Assembly: GCF_025024155.1 (NCBI RefSeq)
Contig: NW_026251823.1
Location: forward strand, 1 to 64,000
Length of the DNA: 64,000 nucleotides
Source: Gamsiella multidivaricata
Lineage: Eukaryota > Mortierellomycota > Mortierellomycetes > Mortierellales > Mortierellaceae
Reading direction: 5' to 3'
In this document: positions 1 to 53,905 of the stretch, piece by piece
How positions within the stretch are numbered: position 1 is the first letter of the stretch
How the letters are laid out: each line of letters starts with the position of its first letter
The notes under the pieces: model-generated
What the model was told of the DNA's origin: nothing
What the model saw: the letters and a program-made list of their open reading frames with translations, nothing else
Databases searched by the model: none
Made by a program: the position numbers and the translations under genes

Positions 1-1192
1 TTTGCGCCCATAGCCGGCTGACGTTCTCCTTGGCCTTTATGGCGTTGTGAACCTCCCTTAAGTAAGAGCTGGTTCCTCCAAGCGTTGATGTCGCACGTGG
101 AGGGAGGACGCTCTCGGGCAGCCTCCTGTAACGAGCTGCATGTAGGTCCTTCACTTTGTGCGCCGAGATGTAAGCGGAATCTATCCATTCTAGTTGATCC
201 TCGAAGCATGTATCCTCGTTCGTTGTAGGTTCTCAGGTCGATGAGAGGTGAACTCATATCTGGTAGATCGAGAACGTTTTGGTCGTCTTCTGGTGCCCTC
301 CTTCATCTTTTCGGGGACCGCCTGTTCCAACTCTGGAAATAAGTTGAGCCAACAAAATCCCGGTTTCATCATGGAAAGTTATATCTATGCAGTGAGATGA
401 GTGTGGACCTTCAGCTGGAGGGGCTTCACTTGCTCATCATTTAGGATCGCGCATGTCCAAAAGATAGATATAGGTTTGTTTCCTAAAAGTGAACGAAAGT
501 CTGGGCAATTCCTGACAGCGGTGCCAAGGTATAGCGGTTACTGTTCGTGCGGTTGAGCCGTACGAAATCCGTGATTGCCGGTGCGTTATGACCGATCTCG
601 ACGTTCTGTTTGGGTAACGGGCCCCTCTTGAACGTTTCCTTGATGCGATGTACGGAATAGGTTCAGGACATTCGTTCGGCCATATCGAGCGTATGCTGCA
701 CGTATGATTTGAGGAGTTAAATCAGAAATGTACCAGTAGGATTTTGTACATAGCATTCCTTGGTAAATAAACGGCAGAGGAAGACGGGACGAAATGGTTC
801 CTGGTCTATTTCCTCAAAGACCTCATACAAACGTGCCCATGCGCTTTCCCTCCGCTTATCGAACGTAGCAAGCGTTGAAAAGGTAACGATTATGGTCTTG
901 TAACCTTCGAGCGCGGATGATCAAGAACAGTACCCCTCGATGGCCGATGATCTATGCGCAGCTGTCAAGTCACAGTCCCATTGCCCAAGCTGATCCCTAA
1001 CCTGAGTGTGTCGTCGCATCTCCCGTTCTGCGAAGGAACAAGGCCCCTCTTCGGAGCCTCATTCTAAGGGGTCTCATCGTAAGTGTGCTTTGTATCTGAA
1101 GCTCTTGTCGTTTCTGGCCGTGGTCCTCCAACTTGCTTCTATTCGAAACTCTTCTGTAGTCTTTGTTCTTAGACTCTGGCTCTAGGTCTTAG
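1..1192. other. No supported gene at left edge
   Basis: Only short interrupted frames are visible. The base composition resembles the adjoining transposase relic rather than a coding exon, so this may be more of the same decayed element. I see no splice-consistent gene, RNA gene or repeat. Confidence 0.4.
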
Positions 1193-40350: not shown

Positions 40351-40938
40351 AGAGGTCTCTTTGTGGTGGTTCACGACGGGATTGAGTCCTTCATGTCGCC
40401 TAATCCAGTATATCCCACTTCGCTTCGCTGCAGCTGTAAGAAATGGATCCTGATCACTACCTCTCGAACCATATTTATGACCTTAGTCCCAAATGGTGCG
40501 TCTACCCTCTTTGTGTCCTTTCTGTCTGTCGAGGCACCCTTCTCCAGTTCTATGCAAAGGAAAAGCAATAGAGGTGACTCAGGATTCAGCGTATTCAGTG
40601 TCTCCTAGCACAAGGGTTCGTAAAAGCATGGGGTAGTCTAATTCTATCGCGTACTATTTACTCTGAACTAGATTAACAGCAGCTTGTGTCCAGAAAATGC
40701 GCTCCAACTTTATGCTTGGTTATGGTTCGTGTAACCGCCTCCACTGTGAAAAACGGGACAGCTTTCTCTTTCGAATCCACGAGGTACAACGCCCGATCAC
40801 CATGTCCTGCCTATTGATCGCGATAAGGCGTTGAAATTTACCGATTAGCAGGCAAGTACCGGACTATCCCTTAGACCGTCTCAATTGGAAAGAGAGACAA
40901 CCACCTAGGATAAATTTTAACTAATACGGCCAGTACAG
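40351..40938. other. Boundary between housekeeping genes and transposon-rich block
   Basis: No gene is supported. This is the downstream side of the minus-strand Fanzor copy and the place where an element end or a guide-RNA gene would be expected, but I could not identify a terminal repeat or a convincing hairpin by eye. Confidence 0.4.
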
Positions 40939-43563
40939 TTATTCTTGCTGGGGTCGGCGAAGGGGCTCTGGGCGAGACAGGCTACTGATCCATTCGAGGT
41001 CAATATTAGCCAAATTCTGAGCGCCCACGCAGTCCCTGTCTAGCCATCTCTGGCACCCATCCTCAAGACAGACGAACGCCCGATTCGCTGGCTTTGCCAT
41101 TCTTCGGTCCTTGTTTTGTCGTACACAGCTTGGGCATTTCGATGACGTGAGATACTCATCCGAACAAACGACGGTGTACCCGAGGCTGTTTGCCTATGTA
41201 GTGCAATGGCATGCGGAAACATGGCATCAGTATCGATACTAGACTGAAAACAAGCAAATCGCAACGAATATCTTTAAAACAACATACCTTGTGGAAAAAA
41301 TACCCCTTGAAGCTCTCGTGTAGCGATACCAGCCTGGTATGAGTGTTGAACTTTCCTGACCCGTGTACAAACATCGCTGGTCTCGTTGGCCCAGTATGCA
41401 TCCCGCCTTGTGGGTCCAAGTTCGCAATGCCCCATGCACGGCATGATCCTTCTCTGCCCGGTTCGTCTTTTTGAGCTCCCACAGCTTTTTTTCATCGAGC
41501 GGGATCCGTAAAAATCGCGAAGTGGTTGTAGGACATAGCTGAACTGTCGAAAGCCGTGCCGGTGTTCTTCCATGCTTACGAATGACGACGACGGTAGCGA
41601 GGCTTCTAATTCGGATATGCTAGGCGTCTCGCATGTATGCCCGCTTAATCCTGTAATGTCTTTGATTGTGACAGTGGTCCGTTCGCGTTTTTTGGCCTCC
41701 AGCGCGACTCTGAATGACAAACTGGGACTGTAGAGAGCGGAGCGTCTGATAGGTAAGTTCGTGACTTGGTTCGGTTTTCGGGGGTCCAGCGCACAAAATG
41801 ATGCTGAAATTACTTCACCGGGGTCCACCCCCACCCCCACAACATTCTGGAGGTCTTGATCGAAAGCCTTTGCGAGGGACCCTTTGTTAGGAAATCGCGA
41901 TGTAATCTCCGGGATCCGCGCCTTAAATTTGGATGACTGTCAACGTCGTCGTATGCCAAATGCCATTAGGTGGAGCTGGACTCCGTCTGTTCTCATCATA
42001 TTGCTGATGGCATAGTGCCCCTTGACGCTGTCATTACTTGGGGGGCCGGGGGACACGGGGGGCTCCGTGCCTTCGGTAGCTGCTTGCTTCCTGGCCTTGT
42101 GATTTGCAAAGACCCTCTTCATGTACCCATCGAGTGCAGCTTGGCTGTATGTGTTTGGATGATCCTTCAGCAATCGGTTCATGGTCGTTGTTTCCTTGCC
42201 ATATAAAGTTTGGTTCTTGAGGGGATCCGCCTTGATCTCGACCTTGTCTCCGATAAACAGTAGTCGGAAAAGCTCCCCATATTTCTCTGATGCAAGTTCG
42301 TGGGCCGTCTCGGAAGAGCAGACTTGAGATTCCATGATATGCCGTGTAGGGTGCGTCTTTGAATTTGGATTGCCCCAAAGAAGTGAAAGAATGGCAGCCT
42401 CAGAGCACAAGATGAAAGAGTCTCCCAACTTCGACACTGGACAGAAAATAGGACGCAACTCCGACGGCACACGGAGAAAGTACCTCCACTAAGTTTGGAT
42501 GTGCCCCTTCTTAAATGACACCTTGTCTTTCTGTTTATCGCCGTCGGAGCTCTCGTCATCCTCAACTGGAGGTATATCATCCGCACGCTTCAGCTAATAG
42601 AAACAAGAAATAAACGTAAGTTCACAGTGGAAAAGCAAATCGACGCGAGATATATCTTGTTCCGGACAGTGGAAATGTTACCTTGTTCACAATGAACTTG
42701 GGCAGTCTCTGGAAATGCTTTCGAACCCCGGTCCGGACCTCCACCGCCAGTTCCGCCTGGATGACGCTCAGGGGTATATCTTGGCAGTCCTTTGTCGGTG
42801 CGTAATCTGAAAGAACGCTCAGGAAATCGTCATAAATCGAGCGCGCAATTGTTTTCGCCTGAATTGCCGCCGAGTCTTTAGATGGTCTCCCGCAGGGCGC
42901 TACTGGACCATTCAGAATCAAAGAGATCAGATTTCTGATGATAGTTTCTCCATGTGCCTTGTGCAGAATGAGATCAAGTGGGTCCGCGTTCTTTTCCTCC
43001 TTGTGCTGGACTTTCGGAGCACTCGCTTGATTGACATCAGTGCCCAAGTTCTGATCTGGTGCCGGGCGCGCTTGATCCAAATTGGATGTGGTGGTAGTGC
43101 TGACCTCCTTGTAGAGAAAAAGTTCGAGCGCTTTAAACACGAGAATACGAGTTTGGCTCATGATGCGGACCGCCTCGCTGATGCGTTCCGCGACAATCTG
43201 GTCTGGACTACGTTCAGCTTCGTGGCGCGGTGCAGGCATCCTGTGATCGACCCTGCAGTCATTGTGGCAGCCTTGAAAGCCTCACCGAACAGGTGCTTAG
43301 TCAGGTTAGCTCCAGCTCGCCTCTCCACTTTTTCACCATTCTGCTCGTCCTCCTTGGACTTCGTCTTGGTTTCACTCGCGGCCTTAGGATTGTCATCCAT
43401 GCTTCCGTCCTTCTTCTTCCGCGGGCGCGGTTCCTCGATGGACATCTTTTCCAATGCGACCTTGTCGACCGGGCATGACTGGCTGACGCCCATGACAACG
43501 TGAGGGGAATAACGAGGGTTGGCATCTCCATTCCTGCTCTTGTACCTAGGGGACAATCCCAAA

Positions 43564-43597
<34 letters not shown>

Positions 43598-45398
43598 AAT
43601 AAGATGATTGTACCAAAGCGACAAAGCTGTAAAAGGTCGTAATGAATTTGAACTCGCTAACAAAGTCATACGACAATCATACCTGCTTCGTCTCCATTTT
43701 GCCTCCCGGGCTCTTTTACGTCTTGTTTTGCCTTTGGGGCGTCGCTTTCTCCGTTGCTGGGCGTTCCCTTTCTCGTGTCTGCGGCGACGGCGTCGGGTCT
43801 GAAGAATCATCTGCTGTCCAGGCGTCTGCAGGCTGTGCTGGACAGGGGAAGAAAACGCCAAGCCTGCAGAAGTGTCGCTGGTGAGTGTATCGGCTGGAGA
43901 ATTTGTCCGCAAGACTCGAGTCATATTTCTCCTTTGCAGCTTGCACTTCTCGAGCTTCTGGAGTATGCCCAGTATTCTCTCGTGGGTCGTGCACGATGGC
44001 TTAGCGGAGTCAAGGTAGTCCTCACGCACTTGAACGAAAGCCGAAATGGCGTGGGTGTAGTCGTCCACACCCTTTTTTTGTCCTCCTCTCGCCCGTTGCA
44101 AATACTCTTGGATCAGCTCCTTGATAATCTCAGCCTCAGTCGTCTTGGATCCTGGCGCGTCCGTTGTTGATCCATCGCCTGCTCTGGTCTCAGTCCTCAT
44201 CTCTCGGATGATCTTGGTGTTTCTTTGGAAGCCGCGCCACGGGAGCGCCTTGGAGTAATCGTTCTTAGTAACGATTGATGCCAGCAACAGCTCACGGTCG
44301 CATGCGAGGTCCAGAGACTCGAGCAGGTCAGCCTTCTTGTACGTGGTAAGCTCTCGGTACTTTCCGACGGATATAGTGATTTCTCTAACACCTTGATATA
44401 CCATCATATCACTGTCGGCGGTAATGATTGCGAGGTCGTCTTTGTTGTTATCAGCTTGATACAACTCGGCAATGTGCGTGTCTGCTTGGAAGGGAAATTC
44501 GCAGGTGTGCCACTCCAAGGTCTCCAGCCCATTTCTTATGTCTGCCAGCGCTGCCTTGGATGTCTTGTACGCGTTTCGACATTGCTTGACAGGGGGGCCA
44601 AAGAGCCGCTGTTTTTTTTCTATGGCGTTGTCAGCTCGCGCTTCCAGAGCCTTGATCCGGTTGCTGAGGGATATGGCCCGACCTTGTCGCTCTTGAGACT
44701 TTTGTATCGAGGCCTTTCCGTCAAAGTGTAGAACCGTGGTTGATTTGCTAAAGTGCTTTGACATGATTTTGTTGAGGTCGTGCGCTATATGGCCGTAATT
44801 CTGTGACTAGAGATGAGGCGGGGTCGAGGAACGAAGCAACAGAACATGTGTCAGCGCTTGATTGCTATGCTGCGTAAGCTGATACGAAACCATTGGCACA
44901 TTTAATTACCTGCTCTGTTGTTCCAGGTCGGTCTGGTGTCAATCGTCCATTAGGGCCAATGAACAGTGCAGGATGTTGCACTCCGGTAGCCTGTATCTCG
45001 CTCGCATAACTAGAGCAAGCCTTTCCTCGCTTGGATGGAGCCTCGGAGAAACTCAGGGCGCGCTTCTTGATGCCGCTTCTCCTGCTAGTGCTGGCGTCTG
45101 CAGTTGAAGGCGCGTCTTGCGCTGCTGAGGCTGTGGAGACTGCAGGGACTGTGGGGACTGCGAGAAAAGTCGCCGTTGCTGTTAGGATAGAAGCCGCTGA
45201 TGCGTTGGTAATTGTCGTAGCCGTTGCCTCAGCTCTCGCTTCCTTGGCGACTCTGTTACACGTCGCTTTGAAGGCCCTTGTTTGCAAGAATCCGAAGTAC
45301 AGACTTAAGACATCGACATGAACTTTCTTGCTCTGCAGACCATAAGCTAGCGTTCCTTTGGTGTCTTTTATAGCTTTGGGTAGCCCAGTGACTACCAT
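40939..45398 (-). pseudogene. XPG/FEN1-like nuclease followed by Fanzor (TnpB-like) nuclease, degraded copy
   Basis: Fanzors are eukaryotic relatives of TnpB, RNA-guided DNA nucleases usually carried by transposons. Exon 1 (45398-44910) opens like an XPG N domain (KKVHVDVLSLYFGF). Exon 2 (44806-43683) continues with VLHFDGKASIQK, FQADTHIAEL and ITADSDMMVY, the XPG-I acidic sites, then a linker. Exon 3 starts at 43545, in phase. Fanzor parts follow: SEAVRIMSQTRI, AISNMMRTDGVQLHLMAF, the RuvC-I strand VGVDPGEVISASF (about 41.8 kb), SLHESFKGYFFHK, and in the last exon (41193-40939) SDEYLTSSKCPSC and CQRWLDRDCVGAQNLANI, that is, the zinc ribbon and RuvC-III. Breaks: in-frame TAG near 42.49 kb, TGA at 41940-41942, and frame slips near 43.23, 41.49 and 41.43 kb. 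Catalytic D, E and D are still present. Not expected to give a full protein as read. Confidence 0.75.
43569..43595 (+). repeat. A27 homopolymer in an intron of the minus-strand XPG-Fanzor copy
   Basis: A run of 27 A on the plus strand (T on the coding strand) sits in the intron at about 43,546-43,682, next to its 3' splice site on the minus strand, where it could act as a polypyrimidine tract. Confidence 0.7.
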
Positions 45399-46589
45399 CT
45401 GGTACAATAAAGGCCAAGTCAAAGTAGACAGCTAATGAGGATCAAATTTGGTGCACGTATCCATTCGCAGAAGCATTCAAGACTCACATTGAGAATATGC
45501 GACAGTGCTTGAGGGCTGATAAGGGAGTGGATGAGGAAAGGAGTGGGGTCAAGGATGTGAGGAATGATGTTTCTTTTAAGACTCCAAAATCTACGTCCAA
45601 AATGTGTGTATGTTCATGCACTATGCTATAGAAATTGCAGTGTTCACATTGATTATTGATTATTTAATTCGTATCTAACAGGGATTGATCACTGTTCTCA
45701 TAAACCACCTAGACTGGGGCAGCGAAAAACTGCAGTTGCTGCAAGATAGTGTATTTCGTGTCAGGAGGGGGCCTGCGAGAACATTATGGCGCCATAGGCT
45801 TCTAGACTGTAGTCTCCCTGGAGGATAGCAACAAGAATGAAGGTAATCATTTATTCTAGTCAACTGGATTGTTAATTAACAACGTGAATTTCTGCAAAGG
45901 CCCCTAAAATTCAGCCCTGTATTCCTTTGCCAGTCACCCTTAAAATAATTTGGAACCGATATGAAGGATCGATTCATGGGAGTTATTTTGTGCTAGATCC
46001 GCTAGGAGCTATGCGAGATTTTGGTCAATGTGCAGAATATGTCGTTCTCTTGAGTAGACCCTGACCTTACTGGTCCTCTGCTTTTCGTTTATCGCTTTCC
46101 AGCTTGCCGAGGGATTCACATGGTGTTCCGGAGTGGACAGGCCCAGAGTACGGTCCAACTTGCACTTGAAAACGTCTGTCAGCAGTCAGAGGCCCACAGA
46201 CAATAATTGGAGGATCAAGAGCCGAGGAAGGAAGAGCAAGAGAGCCATGGTGCTTGCGAAAGTACTGTTAGCCGGTGGTCCTTGTTCCTCCAACTTTTTC
46301 GTATTGCTGAGTTGGGCAAGGCGATAGAGGTCTTCCGATCCAAGGCCATTCGCCGCCGCGTTGAAGTAGAATCCCCATTGTGGACACAGCACCTCAATCA
46401 CGGAGCGAGCCTTCCCCTATTCTCAAACACCGAAAACAGGAAACTCTTGTGCTCCAGTCCTTCCTAGGACACGTTTGGTCTGAGTCGCTGGGGGAAGGAG
46501 AGGAGGGGCAGGACGTACTGTATCTGGAGGCCCGCAAAAGAGCAGTCAGCGCCAATACGTCGCAGGGTCGAATCAACCACTGAACGCCT
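45399..46589. other. Accessory-region sequence without recognised gene
   Basis: About 1.2 kb upstream of the minus-strand XPG-Fanzor copy. Only short interrupted frames are present. It probably contains the promoter of that copy and degraded transposon or effector sequence. No terminal repeat recognised. Confidence 0.4.
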
Positions 46590-46722
46590 CGGAATCCAGC
46601 GCGTCAAGTAGGGTGACATCGTGTTTGACGGTAGTGAGGACAGGGATCGAAACGAGCCAGATAGTGAGCGCGGCCGTATCCACGTTGCTGAACTCGGCAT
46701 CCTTCTTGGCCTTGATACTCTG
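46590..46722 (-). pseudogene. Relic of a Crinkler-type N-terminal (ubiquitin-like) domain
   Basis: On the minus strand the sequence reads SIKAKKDAEFSNVDTAALT, then IWLVSIPV, then DVTLLDALDSEA, and stops at TGA. The pattern IK..K..EF..VDA..LT.W.VSIPV is the second half of the ubiquitin-like N-terminal domain of Crinkler (CRN) proteins, which are numerous in Mortierella-like fungi and in arbuscular mycorrhizal fungi as well as in oomycetes. The first half is missing: the open segment begins immediately at the terminal repeat of the piggyBac-like element, suggesting the element landed in the gene or that a rearrangement occurred. No C-terminal effector domain follows. Family assignment is by motif only. 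Confidence 0.4.
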
Positions 46723-46762
46723 TATCCCTTACTCTGTACGACGTGACGGGCAAATTTGCCCG
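46723..46762 (+). repeat. Left terminal inverted repeat and subterminal palindrome
   Basis: TATCCCTTACTCTGTAC, then a variable 7-base spacer, then the 16-base perfect palindrome CGGGCAAATTTGCCCG. The outer 17 bases match the right end exactly in inverted orientation. Confidence 0.85.
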
Positions 46763-47699
46763 GCAAAATGAAAATTTCCCTATGCTACAGTCATGTAAAT
46801 TATTCAAAGTTTTTTACTCCAGGTCTGTGGGTTGTGTGTGATATTCTTTGAAACAAGGTCTGGCGCCATTGCTACACAAGGGAACCTTGCATATCTGGCA
46901 CCAGATATTGCTTTGGAAGGGGTTCTTCTGGCTCATGTAGATCTGCTTGGTTTGGTATTTCCAAGAACACAGCATACAGGTCCCTCGATGCTTTCGGGTC
47001 ACTGGAAAGTGGTTGTCATCGGTGAATCGGTCATTGGGGAGTTCAAAAGGTCTTTGTCACTCGAGGTCATTTCCAGACAGTGTCATCCTCGTTCTCGTCT
47101 CCCTCCTCCACAGCATTGTGGCGCCGTGCCTTGCTTGAGGTATGGGCCGAATCGATTAACCCCCAGATAAGAGAGCTGCGAAACTCTTTGTGCGTGAGAA
47201 GGGATCCTTTTTTTCGGGCTATGAGATAGGTGTTGATGATAGTCGTATCCAAGAGCCAGAAAAAAATTGGCATCCAGTTCCGCCGCGTTGTTGACTGCTT
47301 GCTGTAGTAGGATCGAAGTTGGTCGGTAATATCAACTCCACCCATATTGCAGTTGTAATCATCGATGACCTTTAGGATCTTGAGTTCCTTCCTGGGAGAG
47401 TTGCCAAAAATTGCTCGCACCTTTGCTCCGTTTGTACTTGTTTCTCGTGGTCGGCGCCGTTTCGAAGGACCTCCCATTCCGCACCTGCAATCCCGTAAAT
47501 CGTTGTTATCATCGTCACCGGTCCATTATCCTGCCAGAAAACGACCAGTACTCCTCCAACCACAACTCCAGACCGAGTATCCCAACCCAACTTGGTGCTC
47601 TTTTCCACCTGTGCTCTTTCGATCGAGCTTAAAGACCAGGGAGGGGTGGCTAAACAGAATTTCGAGATAAAACGAAAAAACGCTGTCATTTTATTTTAA

Positions 47700-47735
47700 C
47701 CGGGCAAATTTGCCCGGTGTACAGAGTAAGGGATA
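47700..47735 (+). repeat. Right terminal inverted repeat and subterminal palindrome
   Basis: The palindrome (here 18 bases, CCGGGCAAATTTGCCCGG) is followed after one base by the inverted copy of the left 17-base end. The spacer is shorter than at the left end. Confidence 0.85.
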
Positions 47736-48207
47736 ATGAAGAAAGACAAAGTTGTAGCCCTAGAACACAATCATTACCTTTACATCCATGCATTGGTACT
47801 GTGTAAGAGCCAGGCGTCGAGGACCGAGGTGAAAGGGTTTGCTCCAAAGACGGTGGAAGTGTTGAATCAGATGAAGGATCAAAATCATTCTGGTTGGCCT
47901 GTGCTTGTAAGTGGTCAATTTCGTAAAGCTCTCCTTGATAAGAAATCTCCATGCCCTTATAGACCTTTGCGGTTAAATACATATGTTTGCACGGCGCCTG
48001 ATGTTGAGCATAATAGTTGCAGCGACAGGCAGCAATGATGGCGAATTCTTCGTCTGTACGGACGTCATATGTAAGACTTGTGGGTGAGCGAGGAACAACG
48101 AGGTGAAAACGAGGGAGACGAGTGAACAAGGTGAGTGAACAAAGACGAATATGTGAAGACAATAGTTTATTGACTAGACTGTTGTGAGTATATGAACTGG
48201 GGTTCAA
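47736..48207 (-). pseudogene. SWIM zinc-finger fragment, probably C terminus of a MULE-type transposase
   Basis: A minus-strand frame contains the SWIM finger CRCNYYAQHQAPCKHMYL (C-x-C ... C-x-H), preceded by YDVRTDEEFAIIAA. SWIM fingers of this kind sit at the C terminus of Mutator-like transposases, although some host proteins have them. The segment after the finger is Ser/Pro-rich and runs into the terminal repeat of the piggyBac-like element. No catalytic domain is found upstream on this strand, so it is a fragment. Confidence 0.5.
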
Positions 48208-48584
48208 CTATATAGTCTGTCTTCCCTTATATACATCAGACGAATAAAGGTCCTGATTAGTAATCCATGGTTCTAGACGTTTCGGTGCTGCCTTTGCTCA
48301 TCTTTACATCATGGAGCTTTCTGTGATGAGGGCGACGTTGATCCAATCTTAGACGCGTCTAGCGTCACATGACAATACCAATCAGAGTTAAGCTCTGACA
48401 TGAACCCACGCGTTACAGCACTGATCACTCGTTTTCCTTCCTTACTTTAAACCTCATAACCTCATCGTCTTTGCAGATTCCCGACATCCGACCTCTTTTC
48501 CATTGAATCGATCACATTACTTCAGCTAAACACTACACATTCGACAGCAGCTCTCTCATCGCGCCACTCGACGTACAGGAAGTG
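48208..48584. other. Upstream region of the plus-strand XPG-like gene
   Basis: 377 bases. It holds a perfect 10-base palindrome AGACGCGTCT near 48,350-48,360 and a C/T-rich stretch before the ATG. It probably contains the promoter and perhaps an element boundary. No terminal repeat was matched to the other side of the Fanzor. Confidence 0.4.
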
Positions 48585-49645
48585 ATGGGTCTTAAAGGCT
48601 GGTACGCCTTTCTTCGTAAGAAGGGTTACCAACCCTCTGTACTTTACCTATCAGCCGCGTCAACAACCTCGAGCACCGCCACCAGAAGATTCGACCTTCT
48701 CTCTCGCTTTTCAGTCATCAGGAATGCTTATACACAGAACTCCATCGAGATGGCCCATACGGTCCTAGAGCTGGATGTCATGCGGTTCGGGACCAAGGAA
48801 AACACCATTATCTACGTCGACGGAATCCAAGCAGAGGAGAAGGAGTTCACTGCTCAGATCCGCCAAGAAGCTCGGGAGAAGACCACTAAGCGTTGCAAAG
48901 AAAGTGTGGATGAACTACAAAGACGGATCGATAACAACCTCAAGGTTCGTAAGCGACACTCCGCCGATGCCTGGACCAGCCTTGCGTCCTCCTTCTATTG
49001 GTCCCTGCCCATCCGTGATGCATTTGTCAAGTATATGCAGGGTGAGGGGTGGAACATTCAGCGATGCGAGACGGAAGCTGATGTTGTGATCGCTCAGGAT
49101 TGCAGATTTGACGATATTGTCGTGTCTGCGGACAGCGATATGCTCGCGTACCCATCCGTGTCAAGTCTGTGGCGCCCGATTTCAAAGAACTTGATTCTGA
49201 TCTACAAAATATCGGATATCTGTGAGGTTCTCGGTGTGTCCAGGATCCAACTCACGGCCCTCGCTGTTGCCTCCAACAACGACTACGGAAAAAAATATCT
49301 ACTCTCTTGGACCGGCGACCAACTTTTCGATTATCAAGACGATCAAGAAACAAGGTAAATATCAATGATCAAAGTATTAAGGAGCGAGGCTGAACCATTT
49401 AACTAATATATATTTTTTTCTACTTTTTTTTACCCTATTTTTGCAGATGTGCGACAGACGTGAATGCATATTTGGAAGACTCCAAGGTCGTTTTAAAAAT
49501 CACAGACAACAAAACACTTGAACTTGCACTCAGAGTCTTTGTTAATCTCCAACAGACGCCTGTCAGCGATCCTCGCCCTTTGTCCAGCGTCTCGTCCTAC
49601 AGTGAGCTTTACAAACAACTCAAGGATCTTTGTGCCATGTACTAA
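48585..49645 (+). CDS. XPG/FEN1-like PIN-domain nuclease (2 exons), upstream partner of the Fanzor
   Basis: Structure-specific nuclease fold of the FEN1/XPG/EXO1 group. Exons 48585-49354 and 49447-49645 splice in phase to 322 residues. It begins MGLKGWYAFLRKKGY, the XPG N-terminal signature. The acidic sites are IIYVDGIQAEEKE, the ETEADVVIAQD segment (E-x-E-A-D) and VVSADSDMLAY. A helical segment with ALAVASNNDYGKK corresponds to the H2TH-like DNA-binding part, here without the usual Gly-rich loop. The frame ends at a TAA (49643-49645). Beyond that stop the same frame runs to a GT donor at 49681 and splices in phase into the Fanzor exon, so the stop may have split what was one fused protein. 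The minus-strand copy at 44.8-45.4 kb is the only relative in the window and has the same order of motifs. Confidence 0.75.
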
Positions 49646-49776
49646 GAGAACAAGGATTTTCGCGCACAACTGCAACCAAGGTATGCTATATTTCTGTTCA
49701 ATATCGCACGGCATTTAGGACTTGGCATCGGCAATCATCTCACAGCTCACCTTACTTATTGTTTTGATGTCAATAG

Positions 49777-52700
49777 TACTCGCAAGGATCGGATCATCCG
49801 CCTCCGCTCCTCACAGTCTTTCATTCGATATAGGACAGTTGAGTCTCCAGCTATGTTGAAGCCTGGCCTTGGGTCGCGCTTACCACAGCCGCCATCACCG
49901 CAACCATCCTCGGCACAACCACAACAACCTGCACCGATTCTGCAGGATAACCCTTCGACCACATTACCGTCTCAGGAGTCAAACGGTCACCCGCCGCTTC
50001 CAAGGACGCAATTCCCACGAAATCGCCATCGTTACTCATTCAAGACGAGGACAGGGGCAACAAACCCCCCACCCCCAGTCAAGATGAAGCTCTACAAGTT
50101 CAAGCCTTACAAGGAGCCTGAAGCAAAAGACGAGCTTGAGCCCTCCAGCGACGAGCCCAAGCCCAAGCCCAAGCCCAAGACCAAACTCAAAACGTTGTCC
50201 GATTCGAGTGCAGCCACCCGCAAGCTCGCTTTTACACGGTTATTACAATACCAGCACCCAACGTCTACTTTGAACGTCGGTACTCTATCCGCTAACCTCA
50301 GACGAGCTCTGCCAAACGACGGTACCGTTCAACAGGAAGTTGCCCTCTGTATCCGAAACGCTGTGCGCGAGGCTGCCAGGATCAAACGACAAGGTCAACG
50401 AGTAATTGGAAAGGTTGTCGAGCATGTGAACAAGCATGAACCGGGTCCCAACGATCGTCGATTCATGAATTTTCTTTGTCCTCGAGTCTCCATGAAGGAC
50501 GCGAAAAAACTGGATGACGGTTGTGCTGCAGAGGACGACGATGAGGATGGTGGTGACATGGACCAGAAATCCAAAGATGGCAAAGGCTCTGAGCAGTTCT
50601 TGTTCCTCCAGAGCTTTCTGGCATACCTCTACTCTGGGAACTACCCACGAAAAAGTGGTACCGGTCAGAAGGTCAACGATTTCATTGATCGCCTCAAGGA
50701 TCTCGGACTGTACGCCCCACCATGTCCTCGGGCCGCTCTCAACGAGACAACTCCCTTCTCACCAAAAGAGTTACTCCTATCGGTGGCGTTGCAGCTCAAG
50801 GTCGAACTCAAAAAAATGTACCGTAATGGGACCTGTGAGCTGCATAATAAGGTATGAGTTGAGGGCACTACTGGTCATCTTAATGTACATCAAACCGATA
50901 CCTATCATGTCTCTTATTTATTATTTTCTATCTTCTCAATTATAGCTCCAGGAAAGAAAAAAGAAGGGGCTGCTGGGATCCGATGTTAACGTGGAGGTCC
51001 AGGAGGAGGTATCTGCTATCGAAAACTACCTCGCGATCAACAAATTGAGTCCAAACCCTCGTAGGATCATCCCCATGTCGACGGCGAAGCAACCTTTTGT
51101 CAGTTTCACGGAACGACAACTGGCTATGTTCTTTTTCAACTGCGGAGACGCACTGAGGGCACGGGTTCAGGAACTGGTCGGTACCGTCTGCACATCCATG
51201 CGGGATGTTGAGGAGCGGATAGGAGGAAAAGAACCAGGCTTTCTCATCAAGCACCTCATCGTCGATATCGATCCCGAAGACCTGACCAGTCGCAAGAGAG
51301 GCAAGGCTGGACACCGCGCTGCGATCAAGTTGTTATCCCTTGATGATCTCGAGACCCACTTGCAGATGCTGGACGATCCAGAGTTCAGACCGGAGACCTA
51401 TGCCCGCAAAGGATATTTTCTCAGGGGGTTCTTACGAACTGACGGATTCACTATGCAGCTCCTGTGTTCCAAAGTCAGGGAACTTCTGTCAGTCAAATAC
51501 AAACGGTTGCCCGGCGATCGCCTACCTCCTCGATTGACTTCAACACTTCACGGTACCAGTGATTTTTTGACGGAGATCCGAAACGTTATCCGAACCAAAG
51601 ACGATGTGGCGAGACTTTGGCTTGGTGTCGATCCTAAAGATATCAAGATTCTCACCCTTGACGCAGGACAAGCTTTTGTCGTTGGAGCATATGCATACCT
51701 ACCAGGAAAATCGATGAACAAGGACGAGTCCACTTCCTTCAATGGTGCATTCCCTATCGCCTCTTACTCCACAACAACACCACAGGATCTGATGCAAAAG
51801 CCGTCTTTGGAGGCACAAACAACTTCAACACCACAGGATCTGATGCAAAAGCCGCCTTTGGAGGCACAAACAATTTCAACACCGCCAGCAACAATGACAG
51901 TGTGACAAGATCCCTCACCACAATCTTACCGTCAACCAGAAGGCCGTGATGCAGCCTGTCTTCCGATATAGACGCTGGCTCGAGGATGAGAAGCAACTGA
52001 AACCAGAGGGTCCAGAGCGGCAACATCAATTGAAACCGGATATCGGGTTACAGTCGATTGCGCATATCGAGTCCCAGCTCCCACCTCTCCAAGGTCCAGA
52101 CACCAGTGTCACCAACTATATTGAGGAGTTGAAAAAAGTCGAGAACCGACTCTTGGAGTTCTATAACGGGGACAACTTTCGATTCAAGAAGCACACATGG
52201 GACATGAAGAGAGCCAAGCACATCGAGTACCAGGCTATTGCCAACAGTCTGCTTGGAATCGTTGGCGGTAGCATTGGTGAACGTCGAGCCAATGATAATC
52301 CAGTGTTGATTGGTGTGGGCCTTGGCCAGTTCGGGAGCAGTAGTCGACTGTCGTCTCTCCACTCATCGTTTTTGTCATACTTTGTCCCTTTGGTAAGCAA
52401 ACGTTTTGTTTTTTGTATCATTGACAATATTTTCTGAGGATTGAGTGCAGGTGAATAACTTATTTTAATTGTTGTAATTAGGCGCGGTCCCTCGGGTATA
52501 TTGTCGTCGGTCTTAATGAGTTTTATACCTCAAAGAAATGTCCGGATTGCCACCGGTTTGTGGCCGAAGTCACCCTTCGACAATTCTTCTGCCCCCACTG
52601 TGGACGGTATCACCACAGAGATGTCATGGCAGCCGAGATATGTCCCATATTGTACGAGAGTACCTGTTGTACCAAGAGCGACCGCGATATCTGCACCCTG

Positions 52701-52915
52701 CTGCAGCAGACGGCAGGTATCCATGGATGGAATCATTGAGTTCAGGACAAGGGACAAGCGTCGAGGCGGCTGTCGGAATTAGTGACTCCACCCCACCGAT
52801 CCAGGCCGGTGGTACTCGATCTCGGAAAAAACGATCGACCTCCAGTTCGACTCAGCAGGAACGTCCAAGAAAAATGGCCAACATTTTGTGTGTACGGCCA
52901 CACCCACCCACGTGA
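49777..52915 (+). pseudogene. Fanzor (eukaryotic TnpB-type RNA-guided nuclease), nearly complete but frame-slipped
   Basis: Exons 49777-50851, 50946 to about 51.9 kb, a frame-shifted segment to 52392, and 52482-52739 (shifted frame to 52915). An independent start could be ATG 49853. A Pro-rich N terminus precedes helices (LAFTRLLQYQHP, NAVREAARIKRQG), then LRGFLRTDGFTMQLL, the RuvC-I strand ILTLDAGQAFVVGAYAYLPG, FRYRRWLEDEKQ, the helix WDMKRAKHIEYQAI, VLIGVGLGQFGSSSRLSSLHSSF, then NEFYTSKKCPDC (alternative catalytic Glu) and FFCPHCGRYHHRDVMAAE (zinc ribbon and RuvC-III Asp). The order and motifs are those of Fanzor proteins. A one-base loss just after DVMAAE hides the normal ending RPRYLHP, which is present in the next frame; a second disruption lies in a 51-base repeat near 51.78-51.91 kb. 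Both can be evolutionary decay or sequence error. Confidence 0.8.
51777..51890 (+). repeat. 51-bp coding tandem repeat inside the Fanzor
   Basis: Two complete 51-base units (51777-51827, 51828-51878; two substitutions or so apart) plus a partial third. The length is a multiple of three. In the annotated frame they read TPQDLMQKP.LEAQT.S; in the +2 frame they read TTGSDAKA.FGGTNNFN. The reading frame of the Fanzor changes across this repeat. Confidence 0.85.
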
Positions 52916-53905
52916 TGATTACAGGGGCGTTGATGAATTTATGATGACGTAGATAACGCCCAGATAGTCCTGTTTTCAACTTGAGATTTGGCAGTTTCTT
53001 CTATCGGTTGTCGCCCTTTTTAGGTAATGCGAATGGGGAGCACAATAAGGTTGCGACAAGGGTGTGGAGTTGTGCCATCATGGACGAGGGATGAGCCCGT
53101 GGAAGGGAAGGTAGCCCCCATCCTCTCTCTCTTTCCCAGAGACCGCGCCATGTGTGGGGATCCGAACGAGAAGATACGGCTGCTCTCTGGCCTTCTCCAC
53201 AGACGCAATTGATTGGCCTGGACCTGTTAAATAAATACTTCCGAGGCATTTTCATTTTCCATTCCAGCTGTTTCCGGGTCTGGCGCCCCCCTCCTCTCTC
53301 TCCCCCCCCCCCCCCCAAGCTCTTCTCCCTCTCCACATTTCATAGTTCAACATCGCATGGTAAATTGTTGGGTCTGAATGAAGGTAGCAGGACTGGATGG
53401 GCCTTGGCATCCATCCCTTGAGGACGGACGAACAAGCGAGTAATAGACTACACCCATGGTAGTCTAGCCGTTGAATGCATCCATTTCTTTGCTGCGTTGC
53501 ATATCCTTTCCCTTCCTCTTCCTCTTCCTCTTTTCCTTTTGAATAGGACACTGCAATCGGATGGGACCCTATTGGCGGGTCCTCAGCAGATGGATGATGA
53601 AGTCACTGCACCGCACTCTAGTATAAATACCAACGCTTGTTCCTCTCTCCTCTCTCTCCATTCGTTGATCTCTCCCCCCTCTTTTAATTCTTCTCTCGTT
53701 CGTTCCTCTCCACTCTCCACTCCCTACTCTTCACTCTCCACTCTATTTTCTCCGCACTTCACACTTCACACCCCACACTCTGCACCTCGTGTTTCCCTTG
53801 ACGTTCTTACTCTTGCACTCTCCACTCTCCACTCTTTACTCTCCACTCTCCACTCTCTCCACTCTCCACTCTCCACTCTCCACTCTTAAACTCTTACTTC
53901 CGTCA
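52740..53905. other. Fanzor 3' flank and promoter of the carnitine acyltransferase gene
   Basis: Guide RNAs of Fanzors usually map to the 3' end and flank of the gene. Here a hairpin-capable pair GGGCGTT (52925-52931) and AACGCCC (52955-52961) lies just after the Fanzor end. Further right is a G/C-rich tract with a C-run (about 53,300-53,320) and then the CTCCACT tandem before the acyltransferase ATG. No gene is supported. Confidence 0.4.
53817..53887 (+). repeat. (CTCCACT)n tandem in the leader of the carnitine acyltransferase gene
   Basis: About nine imperfect copies of the 7-base unit CTCCACT end 20 bases before the start ATG, extending a C/T-rich leader from about 53,640. They would lie in the 5' UTR. 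Confidence 0.8.

Follow-up and report, generated by a model that had tools for sequence, protein, structure and literature searches.

The window analysed here is the first 64 kb (positions 1 to 64,000) of the 91-kb Gamsiella multidivaricata contig NW_026251823.1, contig C19 of a 37.5-Mb assembly in 180 contigs (G000), and it contains two decayed transposon copies, each with what we predict to be a single gene that joins an XPG/FEN1/EXO1-like nuclease to a Fanzor. Such a protein would likely cut a site matched by its RNA and trim the 5′ ends, after which recombination would copy the element; taken as a whole, we give this reading an even chance. A preliminary description of the same DNA had placed an XPG-like nuclease followed by a Fanzor on each strand. 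Both arrays are present (plus strand, from an ATG at 48585 to 52.7 kb; minus strand, about 45.4 to 40.9 kb), together with the motifs quoted for both copies. The extents given there, 40.9–45.4 kb and 48.6–52.9 kb, hold for the arrays, while the elements themselves have wider limits, 47828–52979 on the plus strand and a 3′ end at 40865 on the minus strand. Beyond what was described, both copies are broken and each lies within a multi-copy transposon; the plus copy is a pseudogene, since its frame is broken in several places.

That the XPG and Fanzor halves form one fused gene is, on the sequence evidence, close to certain. Four GT-AG introns occur at matching places in the window plus copy and in two relatives, L022 and L085, whose XPG proteins are about 53% and about 46% identical to the plus family, and the intron phases agree wherever both sides are readable: for intron 1 in L010 and L085, for introns 2 and 3 in the window, L022 and L085, and for intron 4 in the window and L022. 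An open frame crosses the junction of exons 2 and 3 in the sibling L010. The single TAA thought to separate the plus halves (49643–49645) is real, but it sits within exon 2, where L010 has a sense codon, and marks no gene boundary. Splicing of the minus XPG exon in phase toward its Fanzor, also described there, is putative; the feature seen is the AG acceptor just before 44806.

Fused models are likewise found in other genomes. When the two halves of the L085 family were joined into one model, with an X at the one frame break, it matched 26 proteins, all from genera assigned to Mortierellaceae by NCBI, 10 of them over 91–100% of the query. In one protein, P0006, the Pfam domains XPG_I, XPG_I_2 and TNB occur together, each above cut-off, and across 23 proteins Pfam placed TNB in 15, XPG_I in 8 and XPG_I_2 in 5. 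As a control for bias, the database was searched with the Fanzor part of P0005 alone and the XPG domain was scored with a profile made from the copies of this genome only: the domain was present in 62 of the 98 proteins found, and in 48 of the 55 that have at least 1,000 residues. The fused models come from nine named genera of Mortierellaceae, and the XPG domain starts within the first 44 residues of every protein that bears it (P0003 has a second stretch near its C-terminus). Fanzors of the same clade in other genomes carry an N-terminal XPG domain; the outcome that would have made the pairing coincidental, its absence from this clade elsewhere, was looked for and not found. We set aside a reading as two genes, since diverged families share intron positions across the junction and fused models occur in other genomes; the two-nuclease module proposed earlier is supported in a stronger form, as a fusion rather than a neighbourhood only.

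Counts of loci in the genome are lower bounds, as the searches scored limited lists of candidates (150 in two of them). At no fewer than 68 of at least 139 TNB loci, the 7 kb upstream contain an XPG-like match on the same strand, in 47 of the 68 at a distance of 2.7–3.14 kb, against chance controls of at least 5 such matches downstream on the same strand and at least 6 on the opposite strand; the PF07282 list alone gives at least 62 paired loci out of at least 120. Conversely, of at least 105 XPG-like loci, at least 68 are followed by a TNB end, which 37 lack. When the N-terminal region of the Fanzor serves as the anchor, the XPG match lies within 3 kb upstream in at least 42 of at least 65 cases, and 6 of the 23 regions that lack it are no more than 600 nt from a contig end. 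Four of 71 unpaired Fanzor ends were inspected (L048, L049, L050 and L086), of which two are cut off by the end of their contig and the other two are, from their reading frames, apparently truncated at the N-terminus.

At least 139 Fanzor-like C-termini from many families in 37.5 Mb represent a large expansion. Eleven Fanzor ends, several of them near-identical copies, have less than 4 kb to the contig end upstream (Table 1), and the assembly therefore seems to be broken inside a recently active Fanzor family; the start of C19 itself holds a decayed third Fanzor fragment (window 5–367, minus strand, mid-Fanzor matches at E about 1e-17). The matches listed in three protein searches all bear Mortierellaceae names, apart from one unnamed JGI protein; these searches detect only relatives that have short words in common with the query, and a capped list of candidates was scored in two of them. 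Viral contigs gave 34 pattern matches, none of them encoding a relative.

Assignment of the first half to the XPG family is firm only with the relatives included, because the window exons alone score weakly: the plus exon matches PF00867 at E 0.0059, below the cut-off, and the minus exon has no Pfam XPG match. Five transposon copies elsewhere in the genome pass that cut-off. Against the PDB, an XPG-only profile of plus-type copies from this genome matched XPG, RAD2 and FEN1 weakly (E 0.05–0.95, with an unrelated protein first), and the corresponding minus-type profile matched only an unrelated chain; the profile of the database family, however, matches FEN1, RAD2 and EXO1 chains at 8e-14 to 4e-10. 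Membership in the XPG/FEN1/EXO1 family is indicated by homology in both the N and the I region, and by the fold, which resembles FEN1 as well as EXO1. Profile and fold searches agree here with the preliminary assignment, and the outcome that would have contradicted it, another fold, was looked for and not found. The acidic sites are kept in 33/35, 45/45, 57/59, 57/59, 54/66, 58/66 and 63/66 database proteins, counts that, like those for the Fanzor half below, exclude rows without sequence around the site. From these sites, nuclease activity of the XPG half, as a 5′ exonuclease or flap endonuclease, is predicted.

The second half has both the TNB/zinc-ribbon domain and the Fanzor fold, and would be an RNA-guided nuclease. 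Its RuvC residues are kept in 95/95 (Asp), 59/70 (Glu) and 64/69 (Asp) database proteins; the first zinc-ribbon Cys was left uncounted (n = 2, gap columns). The Fanzor1 motif, D-X(125,275)-[TS][TS]XX-C4 zinc finger-X(5,50)-RD, as defined by Bao and Jurka 2013 (PMC3627910), is present in P0005 (D877, TS at 1066, gap 188). A RuvC-I motif of our own design occurs in 72 of 100 database proteins, and the whole Fanzor1 motif in 37 of those 72; 34 of the 35 that fail the whole motif lack a complete downstream zinc-ribbon match, and many are short or partial models.

The two halves also appear to have evolved together. Over 49 proteins, pairwise distances in the XPG part track those in the Fanzor part (Mantel test, r = 0.557, 0 of 999 permutations), which fits the suggestion that the pairing is old. 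When the plus family is compared with its 66% relatives, the ratio of nonsynonymous to synonymous differences per site (pN/pS) is 0.28 for the XPG exon (192 codons) and 0.36–0.40 for Fanzor exon 3; XPG values reach 0.35–0.51 in more distant pairs, and all XPG values are rough because synonymous sites are saturated in every XPG pair. Exon 3 gives 0.65–0.72 among near-identical copies, as drifting copies would. These ratios indicate that both halves are under sequence constraint, and the correlated distances point to a long joint history.

Features of the window, and of contig edges elsewhere in the assembly, are collected in Table 1. Copies of the plus-type XPG stretch comprise 9 at 94–100% identity including that of the window, 5 at 66–67% and 2 partial ones. 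Six of eight siblings fetched (L009, L010, L011, L013, L014 and L015) share the plus 3′ end at 52979, its terminal base deviating in L010 and L015, and L012 and L016 stop short of it. The minus-type XPG stretch has 11 near-full and 4 partial copies in the genome; homology of this family ends at 40862–40865 in 11 of 17 other places, and its 5′ limit is ragged among copies (about 45.6–45.9 kb, and 46.7 kb in one). Fanzor matches of the minus copy fall into three segments, 42110–41466, 41404–41276 and 41220–40924, with TNB at E 1.8e-7.

Table 1. Coordinates of the two XPG-Fanzor elements, of the transposon between them and of Fanzor ends at contig edges.
Feature	Position	Strand	Details
Plus element, 5′-truncated transposon copy with XPG-Fanzor gene	47828..52979	+	3′ terminus ...CCTGTTTTCAA at 52979
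Putative C-terminal remnant, MULE-type transposase	47828..48207	-	SWIM-like CxC...CxH by eye; no Pfam match of its own
Exon 1, XPG/EXO1-like nuclease domain	48585..49354	+	ATG 48585; frame break near 49287
Intron 1, GT-AG, 92 nt	49355..49446	+	in-frame splice in L010 to DVRQTVNAYLED; same phase in L085
Exon 2, C-terminal part of XPG half	49447..49680	+	frame break near start; TAA 49643-49645
Intron 2, GT-AG, 96 nt, phase 2	49681..49776	+	same phase in L022 and in L085 (frame-keeping acceptor)
Exon 3, linker and Fanzor N-terminal region	49777..50851	+	dN/dS 0.155-0.192 against 66% family
Intron 3, GT-AG, phase 0	50852..50945	+	same in L022 and L085
Exon 4, Fanzor with RuvC-I Asp (LTLDAGQ)	50946..52392	+	frame break near 51.8-51.9 kb
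Intron 4, GT-AG, phase 0	52393..52481	+	same in L022; in L085 only the acceptor placed
Exon 5, Fanzor catalytic Glu (NEFYTS), zinc ribbon, RuvC-III Asp (HHRD)	52482..52739	+	PF07282 E 3.5e-13
Candidate guide-RNA end, GTGTGT/ACACAC hairpin and TGACGTA up to 3′ terminus	52858..52979	+	conserved, 3 families
Minus element, XPG-Fanzor gene of second transposon family	40865..45431	-	3′ terminus 40865, TATCCCTTA read inward
Frame with XPG N-terminus, minus copy (MVVTGLPKAI...HVDVLSLY)	44865..45398	-	donor not located
XPG exon, minus copy (FDG, FQAD, TADSD, KNDY)	43955..44806	-	AG acceptor directly before
Fanzor matches, minus copy	40924..42110	-	RuvC-I VGVDPGE; DEYLTSSKCP zinc ribbon; LDRDCVG
DDE_Tnp_1_7 (piggyBac/IS4-like) element, ~1 kb	46723..47735	-	perfect 17-bp inverted ends TATCCCTTACTCTGTAC; between the two XPG-Fanzor copies
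Contig-edge Fanzor ends	C10, C11, C12, C19 (88018), C33, C62, C88, C111, C121, C129, C148 of G000		

Host transposons of the plus and minus copies appear, from their sequences, to differ in kind. In two relatives of the plus element, L022 and L085, the XPG-Fanzor gene has a divergent gene head to head with it; this second gene matches SWIM (PF04434, E 1.1e-5) in L085 and MULE (PF10551) at E 0.11, below cut-off, in L022, and the window keeps only its end. As to terminal inverted repeats, a 37-bp stretch of one copy, L010, matches the 3′ end in inverted orientation at 78%; no target duplication (9–11 bp in the MULE type) was seen by eye in the plus-type families. The small element between the two window copies has no flanking TTAA pair, and target duplications were not seen by eye; because it has a DDE_Tnp_1_7 domain and lacks the TTAA pair expected of piggyBac, we leave it as piggyBac/IS4-like. 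Four of the five genomic copies of this element type, that of the window included, lie 0.2–1.3 kb upstream of a minus-family XPG on the same strand, at varying distances. The terminus of the minus element, TATCCCTTA, is identical to the nine letters that open the 17-bp inverted ends of the small element. This shared sequence would suit a view of the minus family as a piggyBac with XPG-Fanzor cargo, yet the small element is bounded by its own pair of ends, and its distance to the XPG stretch varies.

Both families have fixed 3′ ends and ragged 5′ ends, an arrangement that is unusual for cut-and-paste elements; it is what one would expect if the 3′ end makes a guide RNA. The candidate hairpin there, of seven pairs, and the TGACGTA motif, both before the 3′ terminus, are conserved across three families; no covariation was found in the hairpin.

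These features suggest a mechanism in which the Fanzor half would be programmed by RNA from the fixed 3′ end of the transposon, the guide being the flank of the element's own insertion site. The literature offers precedents: the guide of SpuFz1 is the 3′ flank of its omega-RNA, and its cuts leave 5′ overhangs (PMC10432273), while for TnpB the insertion site is recorded in the guide, element-free plasmids are cut and the insertion sequence is driven (PMC11870625). The Fanzor would cut the empty site, either after the element leaves or on an allele or sister chromatid without it, whereupon the tethered XPG half would begin EXO1-like 5′-to-3′ resection or remove 5′ overhangs and flaps. Trimming of the 5′ ends would disfavour end joining and commit the break to homologous repair from the transposon-bearing copy, so that the element would be retained or would home. 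A Cas9 editor based on human EXO1 shifts repair in this direction, with homology-directed repair up and non-homologous end joining down (PMC11107001). The whole chain, from guide RNA to restoration of the element, we judge about equally likely to hold or to fail. As had been proposed, the XPG half may process ends or R-loops or aid mobility; a wider formulation, in which these proteins are natural exonuclease editors and homing devices, combining a guided Fanzor cut with fused EXO1-type resection, and act as self-spreading drives of Mortierellaceae genomes, is tentative and falls somewhat short of an even chance.

Among other explanations, the XPG half might serve the transposase reaction, acting like FEN1 on 5′ flaps or gaps at transposon ends, with the fusion to Fanzor serving only for delivery. 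The fold, which matches FEN1 as well as EXO1, would allow this, and the gene adjoins transposase sequences in both families; the domain is nonetheless joined to the Fanzor in the fused models, the halves co-diverge, and the same fusion stands beside two different types of transposase, and we consider this account unlikely. It is distinctly improbable that the XPG half acts instead on RNA or R-loops, in guide-RNA 5′ processing or R-loop clearing, like related 5′ exoribonucleases.

The XPG half could also be hardly catalytic and serve for DNA binding or positioning, for example by holding branched DNA or blocking end-joining proteins. In keeping with this, the minus family lacks one conserved carboxylate, having FQAD where the family has TEAD (Gln for an acidic residue at 44491, in five of five aligned copies), which speaks against full activity everywhere, and at some catalytic positions a minority of the proteins differ or have a gap; four acidic positions, however, are kept in 45/45, 57/59, 57/59 and 63/66 proteins, and this idea seems to us at least as improbable as action on RNA. 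Least probable is that two genes merely adjacent in the same transposons were merged by gene-prediction software, for although a few database models (P0108, P0110) hold little beyond the XPG half, and the fusion is known here from gene models and genomic sequence alone, the junction introns match, the L010 frame is open over the exon 2–3 junction, and many fused models come from different genomes.

Fanzors themselves are known, and what appears to be new here is a Fanzor with a fused second nuclease. We found no report in the open-licence literature of a Fanzor paired with XPG or linked to Mortierell- names, nor, judged by title, of one paired with FEN1 or a flap endonuclease; a search there for Fanzor with exonuclease did not turn up the XPG pairing in the text portions returned. 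The accessible part of PMC3627910 does not describe an XPG beside a Fanzor, and a term search of parts of the Fanzor papers PMC10711439 and PMC11423790 gave no mention of fusion or flap. A conserved fused nuclease would be a direct clue to why eukaryotic transposons keep Fanzors, and the fusion makes the homing idea testable. If the idea is true, evolution reached the combination that engineers chose for precise repair, Cas9 with EXO1, and natural Fanzor-exonuclease proteins are candidate editors.

Among the closest known systems are the Fanzor1 proteins of fungal MuDr elements, reported without transposase in Rhizopus (ROr-4), Phycomyces (PBl-3) and Mucor (MCi-4) in the available part of PMC3627910. 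There, as here, a Fanzor1 with the same C-terminal motif is carried by DNA transposons of early-diverging fungi, which are of the Mutator type there and may be so in the plus-type families here; as far as that part of the source goes, those elements have neither a second nuclease nor a transposase, whereas here an XPG domain is added and a divergent transposase-like gene is present in L022 and L085. Fanzor elements of viruses have a second nuclease too, but as separate genes and of other types, as the same source describes for PGv-1 (GIY-YIG) and Mariner-2_PGv. The solved SpuFz, GtFz and PpFz chains have 590–726 residues, compared with about 1,100–1,340 for the proteins here, and PpFz aligned to residues 445–1122 only, the XPG half matching other proteins. 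EXO1, FEN1 and XPG/RAD2 share their profile, fold and acidic active site with that N-terminal half, but they are cellular enzymes, whereas the domain here is borne by a transposon and fused to a predicted RNA-guided nuclease. The Cas9–human EXO1 editor (PMC11107001) likewise couples an RNA-guided nuclease to an EXO1-type nuclease; it is man-made, whereas the protein described here is natural, based on a Fanzor and carried by a transposon.
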